Source of the DNA: Bacteroidaceae bacterium
Lineage (GTDB): Bacteria; Bacteroidota; Bacteroidia; Bacteroidales; Bacteroidaceae
Direction: 5' to 3'
Length of the DNA stretch: 44,384 nt
NCBI GenBank assembly: GCA_017557635.1
Contig: JAFYYH010000012.1
Coordinates: 1-44,384 of the forward strand
Shown here: positions 38,768-44,133 of the stretch, one piece after another
Layout of the letters: each line of letters begins with the position of its first letter
Position numbering within the stretch: position 1 is the first letter of the stretch
Notes under the pieces: generated by a model
The model's input: only the letters and a program-made list of their open reading frames with translations
Database searches by the model: none
Told to the model about the DNA's origin: nothing
Program-made: the position numbers and the translations under genes

Positions 38768-39808
38768 TCAGTTGTTCTCAGGACGGAGCTTGCGAACTAC
38801 TGCACCGGTCTGCCACATCTCGCTGTCGCGCAGGGCAGCCAGCTCCTTCTCAAGTCCCTCGCGATAGCCGGGCTTTGAGTTGCTGTCGATTGAGATCTGA
38901 GCCTCGTTACCGCTCTTAACGCTTGCATAGAGCTTCTGAACAACGGGCTTGATAGCATCGTGGAACGGGCCCATCCAGTCAAGAGCACCGCGCTGTGCAG
39001 TGGTTGAGCAGTTGGCGTACATCCAGTCCATACCCTTCTGTGCGAACAGAGGCATGAGTGACTGAGTGAGTTCCTCGACTGTCTCGTTGAATGCCTCAGA
39101 AGGAGTGTGACCGTTCTCACGGAGAACCTCATACTGAGCCAGGAGCAGACCCTGGATGGCACCCATCAGTGAACCGCGCTCACCGGTGAGGTCTGATGTA
39201 GCCTCGCGGATGAATGTGGTCTCGAACAGGTAACCTGAACCGATACCGATACCGAATGCAAGAACCTTCTCAAGAGCCTTGCCGGAAGCGTCCTGGTAAA
39301 CAGCGTATGAGCTGTTCAGACCGCGACCCTCGAGGAACATGGTACGCAGTGATGTACCTGAACCCTTGGGAGCAACCATGATAACATCGATATCCTTGGG
39401 AGGAACAACGCCTGTGCGGTCGTTCCAGGTGATAGCGAAACCGTGTGAGAAGTAGAGAGTCTTGCCTGCGGTCAGGTAAGGCTTGATGTTGGGCCACTGC
39501 TGCATCTGAGCTGCGTCAGACAGAAGCATGCAGATGATGGTACCCTTCTCAGCAGCCTCCTCGATTGAGAACAGAGTCTTGCCGGGAACCCAACCGTCAG
39601 CGACAGCCTTGTCATAGGTCTTGCCCTGACGCTGGCCAACGATTACGTTGAAACCGTTGTCGCGAAGGTTGCAAGCCTGTCCAGGACCCTGAACGCCGTA
39701 ACCGATAACTGCAATTGTCTCATTCTTGAGCACCTCGCGGGCTTTCTCCAGCGGGAACTCCTCACGTGTCATTACCTCTTCAATGACACCGCCGAAATTC
39801 ATTTTCAT
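38768..39808 (-). CDS. ilvC: Ketol-acid reductoisomerase
   Basis: IlvC turns acetolactate or acetohydroxybutyrate into the dihydroxy acids of the valine, leucine and isoleucine pathway, using NADPH and magnesium. The 346-residue protein has the Rossmann motif VIGYGVQGPGQACNLRDNG, the APKGSG segment, and the C-terminal knotted domain with GERGSLMGAIQGLLLAQYE (conserved metal-binding glutamate/aspartate environment) and CSTTAQRGALDW. It is the last gene of the ilvD-ilvB-ilvN-ilvC operon, 34 bases after ilvN, and is followed by a bidirectional terminator. Confidence 0.96.
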   Translation of the reverse strand: MKMNFGGVIEEVMTREEFPLEKAREVLKNETIAVIGYGVQGPGQACNLRDNGFNVIVGQRQGKTYDKAVADGWVPGKTLFSIEEAAEKGTIICMLLSDAAQMQQWPNIKPYLTAGKTLYFSHGFAITWNDRTGVVPPKDIDVIMVAPKGSGTSLRTMFLEGRGLNSSYAVYQDASGKALEKVLAFGIGIGSGYLFETTFIREATSDLTGERGSLMGAIQGLLLAQYEVLRENGHTPSEAFNETVEELTQSLMPLFAQKGMDWMYANCSTTAQRGALDWMGPFHDAIKPVVQKLYASVKSGNEAQISIDSNSKPGYREGLEKELAALRDSEMWQTGAVVRKLRPENN

Positions 39809-39842: not shown

Positions 39843-40394
39843 TTACTTCTTTCCGTATCTGGCTTCCATCTTGTCCAGATACTCGTTTACATGCTCAATG
39901 CGTGCGCGGGTGATGGCCACGCGGCCTGAGCTTACGAACTGGAGCATACCGCCCTGGGCGGAGAGCTCGCGGTTAAGTGCCGTGATATCCTCGGTGCGTC
40001 CGGTCTTCTCGATTACTGAGAAGGTGGAGTTGACCTCGATCAGTTTTGCGCCGTAGCGGCGTATGATCCTGGACATCTCGGGGTTCTCGGTAAGCACGCT
40101 GGTGACAACCTTGTAGAGGGCTACCTCCTGCATGAATATCTCATCGTCGGTAAAGTACTGGCACTGCAGTACATCGACCTTCTTCTCAATCTGGTCCACA
40201 ATCTTGACTATGGTCTCGGCATCGGCCATGGCGGTGATTGTGTAGCGGTGAACGCCCGGTATTGAGGAGGCCGATACGTTCAGACTCTCAATGTTGACCT
40301 GACGGCGCGTGAACACTGCGGTAACCTGGTTAAGGATACCGGCGATGTTCTCTGAATGAACTATCAGTGTGTATAACTTCTTCTCGTTCTCCAT
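39843..40394 (-). CDS. ilvN: Acetolactate synthase, small regulatory subunit
   Basis: This 183-residue ACT-domain protein is the regulatory subunit of acetolactate synthase (IlvB) and confers valine feedback inhibition in most bacteria. The N-terminal ACT domain (about 5-80) contains TLIVHSENIAGILNQVTAVF, and the C-terminal half the second ferredoxin-like domain of the family. I chose the ATG at 40394; a TTG nine bases upstream would fall inside the repeat array. The array of four heptamers occupies the entire space between the ilvB stop and this start codon. Confidence 0.93.
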   Translation of the reverse strand: MENEKKLYTLIVHSENIAGILNQVTAVFTRRQVNIESLNVSASSIPGVHRYTITAMADAETIVKIVDQIEKKVDVLQCQYFTDDEIFMQEVALYKVVTSVLTENPEMSRIIRRYGAKLIEVNSTFSVIEKTGRTEDITALNRELSAQGGMLQFVSSGRVAITRARIEHVNEYLDKMEARYGKK

Positions 40395-40397
40395 AAT

Positions 40398-40425
40398 TCT
40401 CAACTCTCAATTCTCAATTCTCAAT
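40398..40425 (-). repeat. Heptamer tandem repeat between ilvB and ilvN
   Basis: On the minus strand three copies of ATTGAGA are followed by one GTTGAGA, then ATT and the ilvN ATG. The ilvB TGA stop lies inside the second copy. The order and the terminal GTTGAGA unit match the asnA-ung array exactly. Confidence 0.88.
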
Positions 40426-42123
40426 TGAAAAGATCATCTGGTCAACAGAGTTGCCCGGCTTGATCATAGGCATGACGTTCTCCTCCTCCTGTACGGCTGC
40501 CTCGAGCAGGAACGGGCCCTTGGCGCTGATCATCTGCTTGACGGCATCGGCCAGCTGACTGCGGTCGGTAACCAGCTGGTAGGGGATACCATATGCTGAG
40601 GCAATCTTGCTGTAGTCGGGGTTCATCATGTGGGTGCATGAGTATCGGCTGTCGAACATCATCTGCTGCCACTGGCGTACATTGCCCAGGTAGGTGTTGT
40701 TCATCAGGATCATCTTGACGGGTGCCTGGTTCTCCATTATGGTACCCAGTTCCTGGATGTTCATCTGGAAACCTCCGTCACCGAAGAATGCCAGTACCAT
40801 ACGCTCGGGAGCACCGAATGTGGCGCCGATGGCTGCGGGCATGCAGAATCCCATTGTTCCAAGTCCGCCTGATGTCACGATGCTGCGCGGTGAGCGGTAC
40901 TTGAAGTAACGTGATGCGAACATCTGGTTCAGACCTACGTCAGTTACAAGTACAGAATCGGCAGGTGACTGCTTGCTTACCTCAGTTACAACCTCACCCA
41001 TCTTGAGGGGGCCATCCTTGGGATTTACGGCTATATTGATGACTTTGTCGAATTCCTCCTTGTCAAGCGGCTTGAAGCTCTCGATCCACTCCTTGTGATC
41101 GGCCTTTTCCATGCGCTCGGTGATGAGCTGCAGTGTCTGGCGGCAGTCACCCAGTACGGTTACATCGGGCTTTACGTTCTTGCCGAACTCAGACTTGTCA
41201 ATGTCAAGGTGTATGATCTTGGCCTGCTTGGCGTATGTGTTCAGGGTGCCTGTTACGCGGTCGTCAAAACGCATGCCGACTGCAATCAGGACATCGCACT
41301 CGTTGGTCTTTACATTGGGAGCCAGGTTACCGTGCATGCCGAGCATACCCATGTTGAGCGGGTGGTCGCTTGGCAGTGCTGCAAGTCCCAGAAGGGTGCG
41401 TGCTGCGGGCAGGTTTCCCTTCTCAATGAATGCGGCTAGTTCCTTTTCGGCATTACCCAGTTCTACGCCGTGGCCTACCAGTACAAGGGGCTTTTTGGCG
41501 TTGTTGATCAGTGCTACGGCCTCATTTATCTGTGAATCAATGGGGTCAGGTGCGGGTATGTAACTGCGTACATAGTCTATCTTGGCAGGCTTGAAGTCAA
41601 TCTGCTGCATCTGGGCGGTCTTGGTAAAGTCAAGCACTACGGGACCCGGACGGCCTGAGCCTGCAATATAGAATGCACGTGCCACTGCCCAGGCAATATC
41701 CTCGGCGCGGCGTATCTGATAACTCCACTTGGTGATAGGCTGGGTTACGCCTACCAGGTCAATCTCCTGGAATGCGTCGGTGCCAAGGGCATCGGTCCCT
41801 ACCTGTCCGGCAATTACAACGATTGGGGTGCTGTCAAGCATGGCATCGCTGATACCGGTGATGGTGTTGGTGGCACCAGGTCCGCTGGTTACGATGGCCA
41901 CACCTGTACGGCCCGATACGCGGGCGTAACCCTGAGCGGCGTGGGTGGCACCCTGCTCATGGCGTACCAGGATCTGGCGCAGGTCGGTGCGGTGACCGTA
42001 GAGTGCGTCGAACACCTTGATGATTGAGCCGCCGGGATATGCAAATACCGTATCTACGTTCTCGGCAAGCAGTGAACGGAGCAATGCTTCAGCTCCAGTG
42101 ATATGTTCTGTCATAACGTTCAT
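40414..42123 (-). CDS. ilvB: Acetolactate synthase, large catalytic subunit
   Basis: IlvB is the thiamine-diphosphate enzyme that condenses pyruvate with pyruvate or 2-oxobutyrate at the start of valine/leucine and isoleucine synthesis. The 569-residue protein contains the catalytic glutamate E56 ([16 protein letters not shown]), the FAD/central domain, and the TPP motif [15 protein letters not shown]...NN at the C-terminal domain. The start at 42123 overlaps the ilvD stop by four bases (ATGA); a second Met lies three codons downstream. It is followed by the repeat array and ilvN, its regulatory partner. Confidence 0.95.
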
Positions 42124-43922
42124 TCAATAATTCTGACACCTCCCTTATCGGCTGAGCTTACCATGTTGGCGTAAGCCTTGAGGCTCTTGGCAACTACACG
42201 CTTGCGTGTGAGCGGACGCATGGGGCGAGCTGCGAGTTCTGCATCGCTCAGGCGTACGTTGATGCTGCGTGCGGGTATGTCAATTTCAATTATGTCACCG
42301 TCAACAACCTTACCGATTGCACCGCCGTTGGCAGCCTCGGGTGATATGTGGCCGATGCTCAGACCTGATGTGCCGCCGCTGAAACGTCCGTCGGTGATCA
42401 GAGCGCACTCCTTACCCAGGTGACGTGACTTGATGTATGAGGTGGGGTAGAGCATCTCCTGCATGCCGGGACCTCCCTTGGGGCCCTCATGGGTGATGAC
42501 AACTACGTCGCCGGCTACAACCTTGCCTCCCAGTATGCCGTCAACGGCATCCTCCTGTGAGTCGAATACCTTGGCGGGACCTGAGAACTTCCAGATGCTC
42601 TCATCAACACCTGCGGTCTTTACAACGCAGCCGTCAACGGCAATGTTTCCTTTCAGTATTGCCAGACCGCCGTCCTTGGTGTAGGCGTGCTGCAGGTCGC
42701 GGATGCACCCTGAAGCGCGGTCGGTATCAAGCTCGCTGTATGTGCAGTCCTGTGAGCCCAGCTCTATGTTGAACTTACGTGCAGGTGCGGTTGAGTATAT
42801 GCGCTTGGCCTCGGGGTCGATATCGGCCTTGAGTATGCTGTACTTCTCAATGAGTTCACCGTAAGTCATTCCTGTCACGCTCTTGGCGTCAGTGTGCAGC
42901 AGACCGCCCTTGGCAAGTTCGGCCAGGATGTTGAGTACACCGCCTGCGCGGCCTACATCCTGTACGTGATACTTCTGGGTGTTGGGTGCTACCTTGCACA
43001 GACAGGGCACGTGACGTGACAGACGGTCTATGTCATCCATCTTGAAGTCAACGCCGGCCTCATATGCAACAGCCAGAAGGTGAAGTATGGTGTTGGTGGA
43101 TCCGCCCATGGCGATATCCAGGTTCATTGCGTTCTCAAAGTTGATCTTCTTTGCTATGCTGCGGGGCAGTACGCTCTCGTCACCCTCCTCGTAGTACTTG
43201 AGGGCGTTCTTTACAACCAGGGCGGCTGCGTCCTTCATCAGTTGCACGCGGTTCTTGTGTGTTGCCAGGATTGTTCCGTTGCCGGGCAGTGACATACCCA
43301 GGGCCTCGGTAAGGCAGTTCATTGAGTTTGCGGTGAACATACCTGAGCAGCATCCGCAACCGGGGCAGGCTGCACGCTCAATTGCCTCTACATCGGCGTC
43401 CGATACGCTCTCATCGGCCGATTTGATCATGGCGTCGATCAGGTCCAGACGGGCGCTTCCCATCTCACCGGCCTCCATGGGGCCGCCGCTTACGAATACG
43501 GTGGGGATGTTCAGACGCATGGCTGCCATCAGCATGCCCGGAGTGATCTTGTCGCAGTTGCTTATGCAGACCAGGGCATCGGCCTTGTGGGCGTTTACCA
43601 TGTACTCTACGCTGTCGGCGATTATGTCGCGTGAGGGGAGTGAATAGAGCATTCCGTCGTGACCCATTGCAATACCGTCATCCACGGCAATTGTATTGAA
43701 CTCGGCGGCAAAACAGCCCAGGCGTTCAATCTCGGCCTTGACAATCTGACCGGCCTCATGCAGATGGGTGTGACCCGGGACAAACTGTGTGAATGAGTTT
43801 GCAATTGCTATGATAGGTTTGCCCAGCTGACCGGGTTTCATGCCGTTGGCAACCCAGAGGGCTCTGGCTCCTGCCATGCGGCGTCCTACGGTACACTGGT
43901 CACTGCGTAATGGAATTCTCAT
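42120..43922 (-). CDS. ilvD: Dihydroxy-acid dehydratase
   Basis: IlvD is an iron-sulfur dehydratase that makes the 2-oxo acids preceding valine and isoleucine. The 600-residue protein shows the cluster-ligand motifs [11 protein letters not shown] and [17 protein letters not shown], plus the [11 protein letters not shown] substrate segment. The start ATG at 43922 has a rare Shine-Dalgarno-like AGGAG two bases upstream. It is the first structural gene of the operon and lies behind a leader peptide and attenuator, so its expression should follow the charging of branched-chain tRNAs. The length and motif order are normal. Confidence 0.96.
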
Positions 43923-43958
43923 ATCTCCTGTTTATTGTTTTTGTATATATATTCAATC

Positions 43959-43987
43959 AAAAGCCCCTCTCCTTGTGGGAGAAGGGC
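43959..43987 (-). terminator. Attenuator terminator in the ilvD leader
   Basis: On the minus strand GCCCTTCTCC and GGAGAGGGGC form a 10-bp stem with one G-U pair and a 5-base loop (43963-43987), followed by TTTT. It lies between the leader ORF and ilvD, 37 bases ahead of the ilvD start. Confidence 0.85.
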
Positions 43988-44018
43988 CTGTATCAAAATG
44001 TCAGGTATAACCTCTCCC
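43977..44018 (-). promoter_or_regulatory. Alternative antiterminator pairing of the ilv leader
   Basis: GGGAGAGG (44011-44018), beginning right after the leader stop codon, pairs with CTTCTCCC (43977-43984), which is part of the terminator's left arm; one pair is G-U. The two structures are mutually exclusive. A ribosome at the leader stop codon would cover GGGAGAGG and so allow the terminator to form. Confidence 0.7.
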
Positions 44019-44081
44019 TTAGCGCGCCGGCCCAACGACCACCACGTCCACAATAAAGGTAATGACTGACATGTTATACAT
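44019..44081 (-). CDS. Leader peptide of the ilv operon
   Basis: A 20-codon ORF encodes a peptide ending VITFIVDVVVVGPAR, with six valines and two isoleucines. Four valine codons in a row (GTG GTG GTC GTT) occupy 44034-44045. The composition matches leader peptides of enterobacterial ilv operons, and the VVVVG run recalls the ilvB leader of E. coli. It begins about 16 bases after the predicted transcription start, and its stop codon directly precedes the antiterminator arm. It is too short for an ordinary gene call; the function is inferred from position, codon content and RNA structure together. Confidence 0.75.
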   Translation of the reverse strand: MYNMSVITFIVDVVVVGPAR

Positions 44082-44103
44082 AACTCGTTCCAAAATGTGA
44101 CCG

Positions 44104-44133
44104 CAAAGATACCTATTTTATAAATAGCACAAA
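44104..44133 (-). promoter_or_regulatory. Predicted ilv operon promoter
   Basis: TTTG (44130-44133) is followed after 18 bases by TATCTTTG (44104-44111), a good Bacteroidetes -33/-7 pair on the minus strand. Transcription from it would produce a leader of about 175 bases before ilvD that includes the leader ORF and attenuator. Confidence 0.75.

Follow-up and report, generated by a model that had tools for sequence, protein, structure and literature searches.

The ilvGMEDA and ilvBN (ivbL) operons of enterobacteria are controlled by leader-peptide attenuators, characterized by a short leader rich in valine, isoleucine and leucine (ILV) codons. The ilvDBNC operon described here, from a Bacteroidaceae bacterium, resembles these systems in that an ILV-rich short leader, together with a mutually exclusive antiterminator and intrinsic terminator, precedes the ilv genes. 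It differs from them in its phylum, in its gene order and in a 20-codon leader dominated by valine, and the systems are likened here by layout only.

Leader-based attenuation of an ilv operon outside the Enterobacteria is also reported for ilvBNC of Corynebacterium (PMC11857589, PMC10272879); unlike the element studied here, that attenuator belongs to Actinobacteria and is located upstream of ilvB. Within the phylum of the window, strong clues to leader-peptide attenuation upstream of amino acid operons are reported for Flavobacterium psychrophilum, which however belongs to the Flavobacteria (PMC9723704; the terms 'ilv' and 'branched-chain' are absent from the main text of that paper), and 5' UTR small ORFs reminiscent of leader peptides are described in B. 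thetaiotaomicron (PMC7366714, with 'ilv' absent from the main text). A search of the open-access literature for ilv attenuation in Bacteroidetes or Bacteroidota found no paper on this element and, as far as that literature shows, precedent for classical attenuation in the phylum is sparse.

The ilvDBNC leader of the window

The window, that is, the whole stretch of DNA that was analysed, is 44,384 nucleotides long and coincides with an entire contig. Four genes on its minus strand, in the order ilvD-ilvB-ilvN-ilvC, had their identities confirmed with NCBIfam (Table 1). Upstream of ilvD, the promoter that the sequence-only reading had described as TTTG-N18-TATCTTTG is present in its place and, read from the sequence, is of the Bacteroidota type: TATCTTTG agrees with the -7 box TAnnTTTG given in PMC9723704. 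A core resembling it is found upstream of many ilvD genes of the window's genus, leader-less ones included. The right end of the contig (44244-44384) is a dispersed repeat, whose 141 nt recur without a mismatch at the ends of two other contigs, with six more copies elsewhere in the genome that are 80-92% alike; by eye, sequence resembling it can also be seen ahead of ilvD in several relatives, where both orientations occur.

Table 1. Position and basis of the features of the ilvDBNC locus and of the leuA operon of the same genome
Feature	Position	Strand	Basis
ilvD, dihydroxy-acid dehydratase, first structural gene	42120..43922	-	NF009103 1023.6 bits, TIGR00110 772.6
ilvB, acetolactate synthase large subunit	40414..42123	-	TIGR00118 671.2 bits
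ilvN, acetolactate synthase small subunit	39843..40403	-	TIGR00119 83.2 bits
ilvC, ketol-acid reductoisomerase	38768..39808	-	TIGR00465 323.1 bits
Promoter-like sequence: TTTG 44133-44130, 18-nt spacer, TATCTTTG 44111-44104	44104..44133	-	sequence
Leader ORF, 20 codons + TAA: MYNMSVITFIVDVVVVGPAR; ATG at 44081, TAA at 44021-44019	44019..44081	-	sequence; counterparts of equal length in six related genomes
Control codons: four consecutive Val, GTG GTG GTC GTT	44034..44045	-	sequence
Segment 1 core AUGUCAG, pairs with 44004-43998	44066..44072	-	fold; order-wide 1:2 swap test
Segment 2 (AGGGAGAGGUUAUACCUGA), antiterminator half; octamer GGGAGAGG 44018-44011	44001..44019	-	pairing energies, caller, swap test, covariation
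Segment 3 (GGCCCUUCUCCC), common to antiterminator 2:3 and terminator 3:4	43977..43988	-	fold, energies, covariation
Segment 4 (GGAGAGGGGC), terminator 3' arm	43963..43972	-	fold, energies, covariation
U-rich tail UUUUGAUU, weak	43955..43962	-	sequence
leuA-leuC-[LeuD + citramalate-synthase-like]-leuB operon	L250:3844-9938, contig C15	-	profile matches

The ORF with four consecutive valine codons to which the same reading had drawn attention is confirmed: valine and isoleucine account for 8 of its 20 codons, the VVVV run included, so that cognate codons stand ahead of ilvDBNC. Its stop codon directly adjoins the octamer GGGAGAGG, as had been claimed. The octamer, in turn, pairs with the left arm of the downstream hairpin with one bulge, and the resulting antiterminator 2:3 (-18.3 kcal/mol) and the terminator 3:4 (-20.5 kcal/mol, 39 nt upstream of ilvD) exclude one another, as predicted. 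The terminator-like hairpin itself, AGGCCCTTCTCCC-ACA-AGGAGAGGGGCTT, spans about 43989-43961, and TTTTGATT runs up to 43955. Of the terminator with a T run proposed before ilvD, the hairpin is thus present, while the T run is short, consisting of TTTT (43962-43959) followed by GATT; presumably for this reason, a simple terminator scan did not list the hairpin. The 3' part of segment 2 (from 44004) can also pair with segment 1, and this protector helix, AUGUCAG/CUGACAU, is present in the window fold. The leader RNA as a whole folds into helices 1:2 and 3:4 at -59.5 kcal/mol, below 200 of 200 dinucleotide shuffles (z -5.07).

It is highly likely that a classical ribosome-mediated transcription attenuator controls ilvDBNC, and the leader very probably would let the bacterium switch on its valine/isoleucine genes only when valine is short. 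RNA polymerase would start near 44100, with a ribosome behind it reading the valine-rich leader. When charged tRNA-Val is scarce, the ribosome would stall on GUG GUG GUC GUU with its front edge just short of segment 2; segment 2 would then pair with segment 3, the terminator 3:4 would be blocked and the operon transcribed. When valine is plentiful, the ribosome at the stop codon would cover segment 2, 3:4 would form and transcription would end near 43959. Following ribosome release, helix 1:2 would keep segment 2 away. In this scheme we infer where transcription starts, that the leader is translated, that termination occurs in the cell and that the system responds to charged tRNA-Val, as well as the steps that would lead from codon stalling to gene expression. 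The nucleotide changes of the leader in seven close genomes show no third-position bias (variable columns 12, 7 and 11 of 21 by codon position) and therefore do not independently prove, at the codon level, that it is translated.

Riboswitches and T-boxes likewise make use of terminator/antiterminator pairs ahead of amino acid genes. It could be argued from this that a ligand-binding riboswitch or a T-box controls the terminator, a possibility that we regard as extremely remote: with 4227 models of Rfam release 15 at their gathering cut-offs, no family is reached in the leader, where five sub-threshold matches are to unrelated families, and in the window only a tRNA elsewhere does reach its cut-off. 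Moreover, the ORF explains the conserved parts. A riboswitch or T-box identity was rejected on the absence of a match at gathering score in the leader. The Bacteroid-trp RNA motif (RF01692), which has its role at trp genes, was also considered. It is listed in PMC2864571 among the candidate cis-regulatory RNAs of Bacteroidetes, to which the window leader can likewise be counted; membership was rejected, as the leader is no member and the window's genome (G000) has no match. RF01692 matches (L227-L230) were found in 4 of 41 searched genomes at E 0.001, three of them over the cut-off, and two of these four genomes belong to the window's genus.

Distribution and covariation across Bacteroidales

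IlvD matches were obtained in 50 of 61 relatives and in 108 of 247 genomes of the order, the latter including some partial or paralogous matches. From these, 128 ilvD upstream regions were extracted, of which 35 belong to the window's genus and 93 to other genera of Bacteroidales; paralogous, partial and second-copy matches were left out of the order-wide set, which omits eight IlvD places (G276, G197, G149, G280, G260, G068, G062 and G224). The attenuator layout was then called with rules that ignore codon content, namely a terminator of at most -10 kcal/mol within 250 nt, a 2:3 duplex of at most -10 kcal/mol, and an ATG ORF of 10-50 codons with its stop between -12 and +25 nt from segment 2. 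Of the 128 regions, which are related to one another so that the counts are not independent trials, 83 gave a call, compared with 33 of 1280 dinucleotide-shuffled regions. Over the last 15 codons of the 83 calls, Ile, Leu and Val make up 57% in frame versus 22% and 13% in the other frames, and an ILV content of at least 50% is found in 61 of the 83 real calls versus none of the 33 shuffled ones.

Five doubtful calls (L013, L022, L056, L073 and L145) were dropped before the geometry and codon-share counts, leaving 78, of which 11 are in the genus and 67 outside it. Relatives were also checked for lack of the ORF or of the covariation, and neither is lacking: the layout is present in 67 of the 93 other-genus regions, and compensatory changes, discussed below, are found in both 2:3 and 3:4. 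The remaining 26 of these 93 regions were not accepted by the caller; some of them show nothing, others a leader by eye, and uncalled regions of the latter kind number several (e.g., L026, L076 and L086).

Of 80 named IlvD loci (51 Bacteroidota and 29 others, by record title), 27 pass the strict caller, among them those of Bacteroides graminisolvens DSM 19988, Phocaeicola faecalis, B. propionicigenes, Odoribacter laneus and Labilibaculum sp. K2S. Specifically, 24 of the 51 Bacteroidota loci pass, 19 with at least 40% ILV, although two of the 24 (L157 and L160) look spurious. The 29 non-Bacteroidota loci served as a negative control; among them, three of which had less than 200 nt upstream, 3 pass with 8-20% ILV and no ILV-rich leader was found.

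These data bear on an alternative, according to which the hairpin is an ordinary terminator or serves to stabilise the 5' end, and the short ORF has arisen by chance. The weak T run speaks for it, and so do six genomes of the genus that keep the hairpin alone behind the promoter, where it may have a use of its own. On the other hand, the composition of the ORF, the spacing and the complementarity of segment 2 are maintained throughout the order, and the 33 layouts arising among the 1280 shuffles include no ILV-rich ORF; we therefore consider a fortuitous ORF very improbable, and retain attenuation as the explanation.

The pairing of the segments was further examined by swapping partners among 52 representatives, with L073 and L145 dropped; four of these come from the window's genus, and every other family or genus label is represented once. 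When the stretch upstream of the hairpin was paired with segment 3 (2:3), own partners gave a mean of -15.1 kcal/mol versus -10.9 for swapped ones, and 0 of 1000 trials reached the own-partner mean. When the leader was paired with the stretch after the stop codon (1:2), the means were -11.0 and -8.3 kcal/mol, and again 0 of 1000 trials reached the observed one; this helix is the weakest, since 22% of foreign partners give the median genome a more stable pairing than its native one does. The 3:4 swap (0 of 200) is biased, the arms having been taken from each genome's own fold. In a MAFFT alignment of 35 of the 52 representatives, from which 17 were omitted by hand in a way that favours simple-layout rows and whose pair columns were taken from one row, 86.1% of the 2:3 cells and 91.8% of the 3:4 cells are paired, with 19 and 32 both-side changes, respectively; the covariation score of either helix was reached by 0 of 500 shuffles, and slid registers gave at most 70% pairing. 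A count of the pairs that show a both-side change at all is a weaker measure, reached by 58 (2:3) and 24 (3:4) of 500 shuffles.

Spacing of the control codons and codon content of the leaders

The sequence-only reading described a minimal design with a stop codon abutting the antiterminator. This is true in the window and common elsewhere, but it is not the conserved rule: the position of the stop codon is variable (sd 6.7) and lies at least 10 nt past the start of segment 2 in 10 of the 78 leaders. A conserved adjoining stop was therefore rejected. What is conserved instead is the distance from the first base of the last ILV-block codon to segment 2, with a median of 13 nt, a 5-95% range of 7-17 and an sd of 3.5 (n=78), a ribosome-length spacing at which a stalled ribosome would leave segment 2 free. 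This regularity is not imposed by the caller, which constrains the position of the stop and not that of the ILV block, and permuting stop offsets among genomes gave a mean sd of 9.8, with 0 of 10000 trials at or below 3.5. A ribosome is described as reaching up to 12 nt beyond the stop codon (PMC4833913). With a control-codon spacing of about 13 nt, a ribosome stalled there would therefore just free segment 2, and one reading on would cover it. Leader-peptide attenuation of the ilv operon, as originally proposed, is supported by comparison in its ORF and layout, in its mutually exclusive pairings and their covariation, in its spacing and in its cognate codons.

Further leaders were sought with a covariance model built on segments 2 to 4. 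The window's genome gave two matches at E values up to 1, a strong one on another contig (E 7.8e-4) and a weak one at E 0.59; the window's own ilvD leader was not reported, and the model is therefore not sensitive. Run on 15 other Bacteroidales genomes with a limit of E 0.01, it gave 17 matches, spread over 12 of them; by place and reading, these matches lie before ilvD (12), leuA (4) and ilvB (1). The strong match in the window's genome also lies before leuA, at the head of an operon that encodes LeuD fused to a citramalate-synthase-like domain in a single ORF of 713 aa. Assignment of the fused domain as citramalate synthase (cimA-like) is a lead, its NF042433 score of 640.9 bits being below the cut-off of 950. 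The leader of this operon, MRLQGFIIISIIIPDCRCEEA, contains six Ile, one Leu and no Val.

By reading, 25 of 27 leuA loci of the genus have an Ile-rich leader, 22 of the MRL type, and nine further loci with a less similar LeuA (52-66%) have no leader by the caller; outside the genus, a leuA leader was accepted at 6 of 12 loci. After two of 32 calls (L274 and L285) were dropped as spurious and the partial leuA of G050 was left out, 30 leuA leaders remained. At least three Val are found in 68 of the 78 ilvD leaders versus none of these 30, and the codons therefore track the operon, with the caution that 24 of the 30 are from the window's genus, many as near copies, so that p values of this comparison are overstated. 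A third operon type is seen in G222, where an Ile/Val/Leu-rich leader and a terminator (L243) stand before ilvB; the same genome also has a leader before ilvD (L106).

The leader peptides are short and very hydrophobic, and a stalled codon and an arrested chain are not separable by sequence alone. Either property would fit nascent-peptide arrest, or a functional hydrophobic peptide (e.g., membrane-active), in place of tRNA-dependent codon stalling. However, the peptide sequences vary widely while the ILV codons are kept, as is their distance from segment 2, and the codons are for Val in ilvD leaders but for Ile/Leu in leuA leaders, as expected for a codon sensor. Action through the peptide thus appears most unlikely, and tRNA-dependent stalling remains the preferred reading.

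Taken together, these findings would suggest that Bacteroidales probably possess a widespread, unannotated attenuation regulon for branched-chain amino acids, in which ilvD(BNC) leaders are mainly valine leaders and leuA leaders carry Ile and Leu, the spacing implies close following of RNA polymerase by the ribosome, and the codons report the product. If confirmed, isoleucine at a leuA operon carrying a citramalate-synthase-like domain would be a case of a codon reporting the operon product.

Probable loss within the genus and implications

The genus set comprises 37 genomes, of which 35 were classed by reading, G004 and G010 having only 3' fragments of ilvD. The attenuator upstream of ilvD is intact in 12, reduced to a hairpin right behind the promoter in 6 and absent in both parts in 17. 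It is therefore dispensable in the 23 genomes without an intact copy, 15 of which keep the leuA leader. On an ilvD tree of 30 genus genomes and one leader-bearing outgroup, the minimum for the three states is 8 changes, versus a shuffled mean of 14.1, and the well-supported branches alone force at least 4 changes for the intact state. Because leaders occur in most other genera, repeated loss of the ilvD leader is the likely direction, with several forks left open.

At the hairpin-only loci (L012, L014, L015, L016, L033 and L037) the terminator stem comes immediately after the promoter and the leader ORF is missing; placed so near the start of the transcript, such a hairpin may fail to cause termination, and it might act as a 5' stabiliser. 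Near-perfect short palindromes around AAAGGGGnCAGnCCCCTTT were noticed just upstream of the ilvD promoter in L013, L022, L024, L028 and L056. They lie roughly 100-200 nt upstream of ilvD in leader-less members of the genus and look like small mobile or REP-like repeats.

As judged from comparative sequence, the attenuator is ordinary in mechanism and broad in distribution, and it is new chiefly as a comparative result: the new points are its wide occurrence in the order, the split between valine and isoleucine sensing and the ribosome-sized spacing. Classical attenuation depends on transcription and translation being tightly coupled. The fixed distance between control codons and antiterminator would imply that ribosomes keep close behind RNA polymerase in this phylum. 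Attenuation with such ribosome-sized spacing at branched-chain operons throughout an order of gut bacteria makes coupling in Bacteroidota directly testable. The absence of the attenuator in many members of one genus provides natural leader-less controls. In addition, the codons of the leaders may predict pathway products, valine at ilvD and isoleucine at leuA/cimA, and the leaders would represent ready-made amino-acid sensors for gut commensals.
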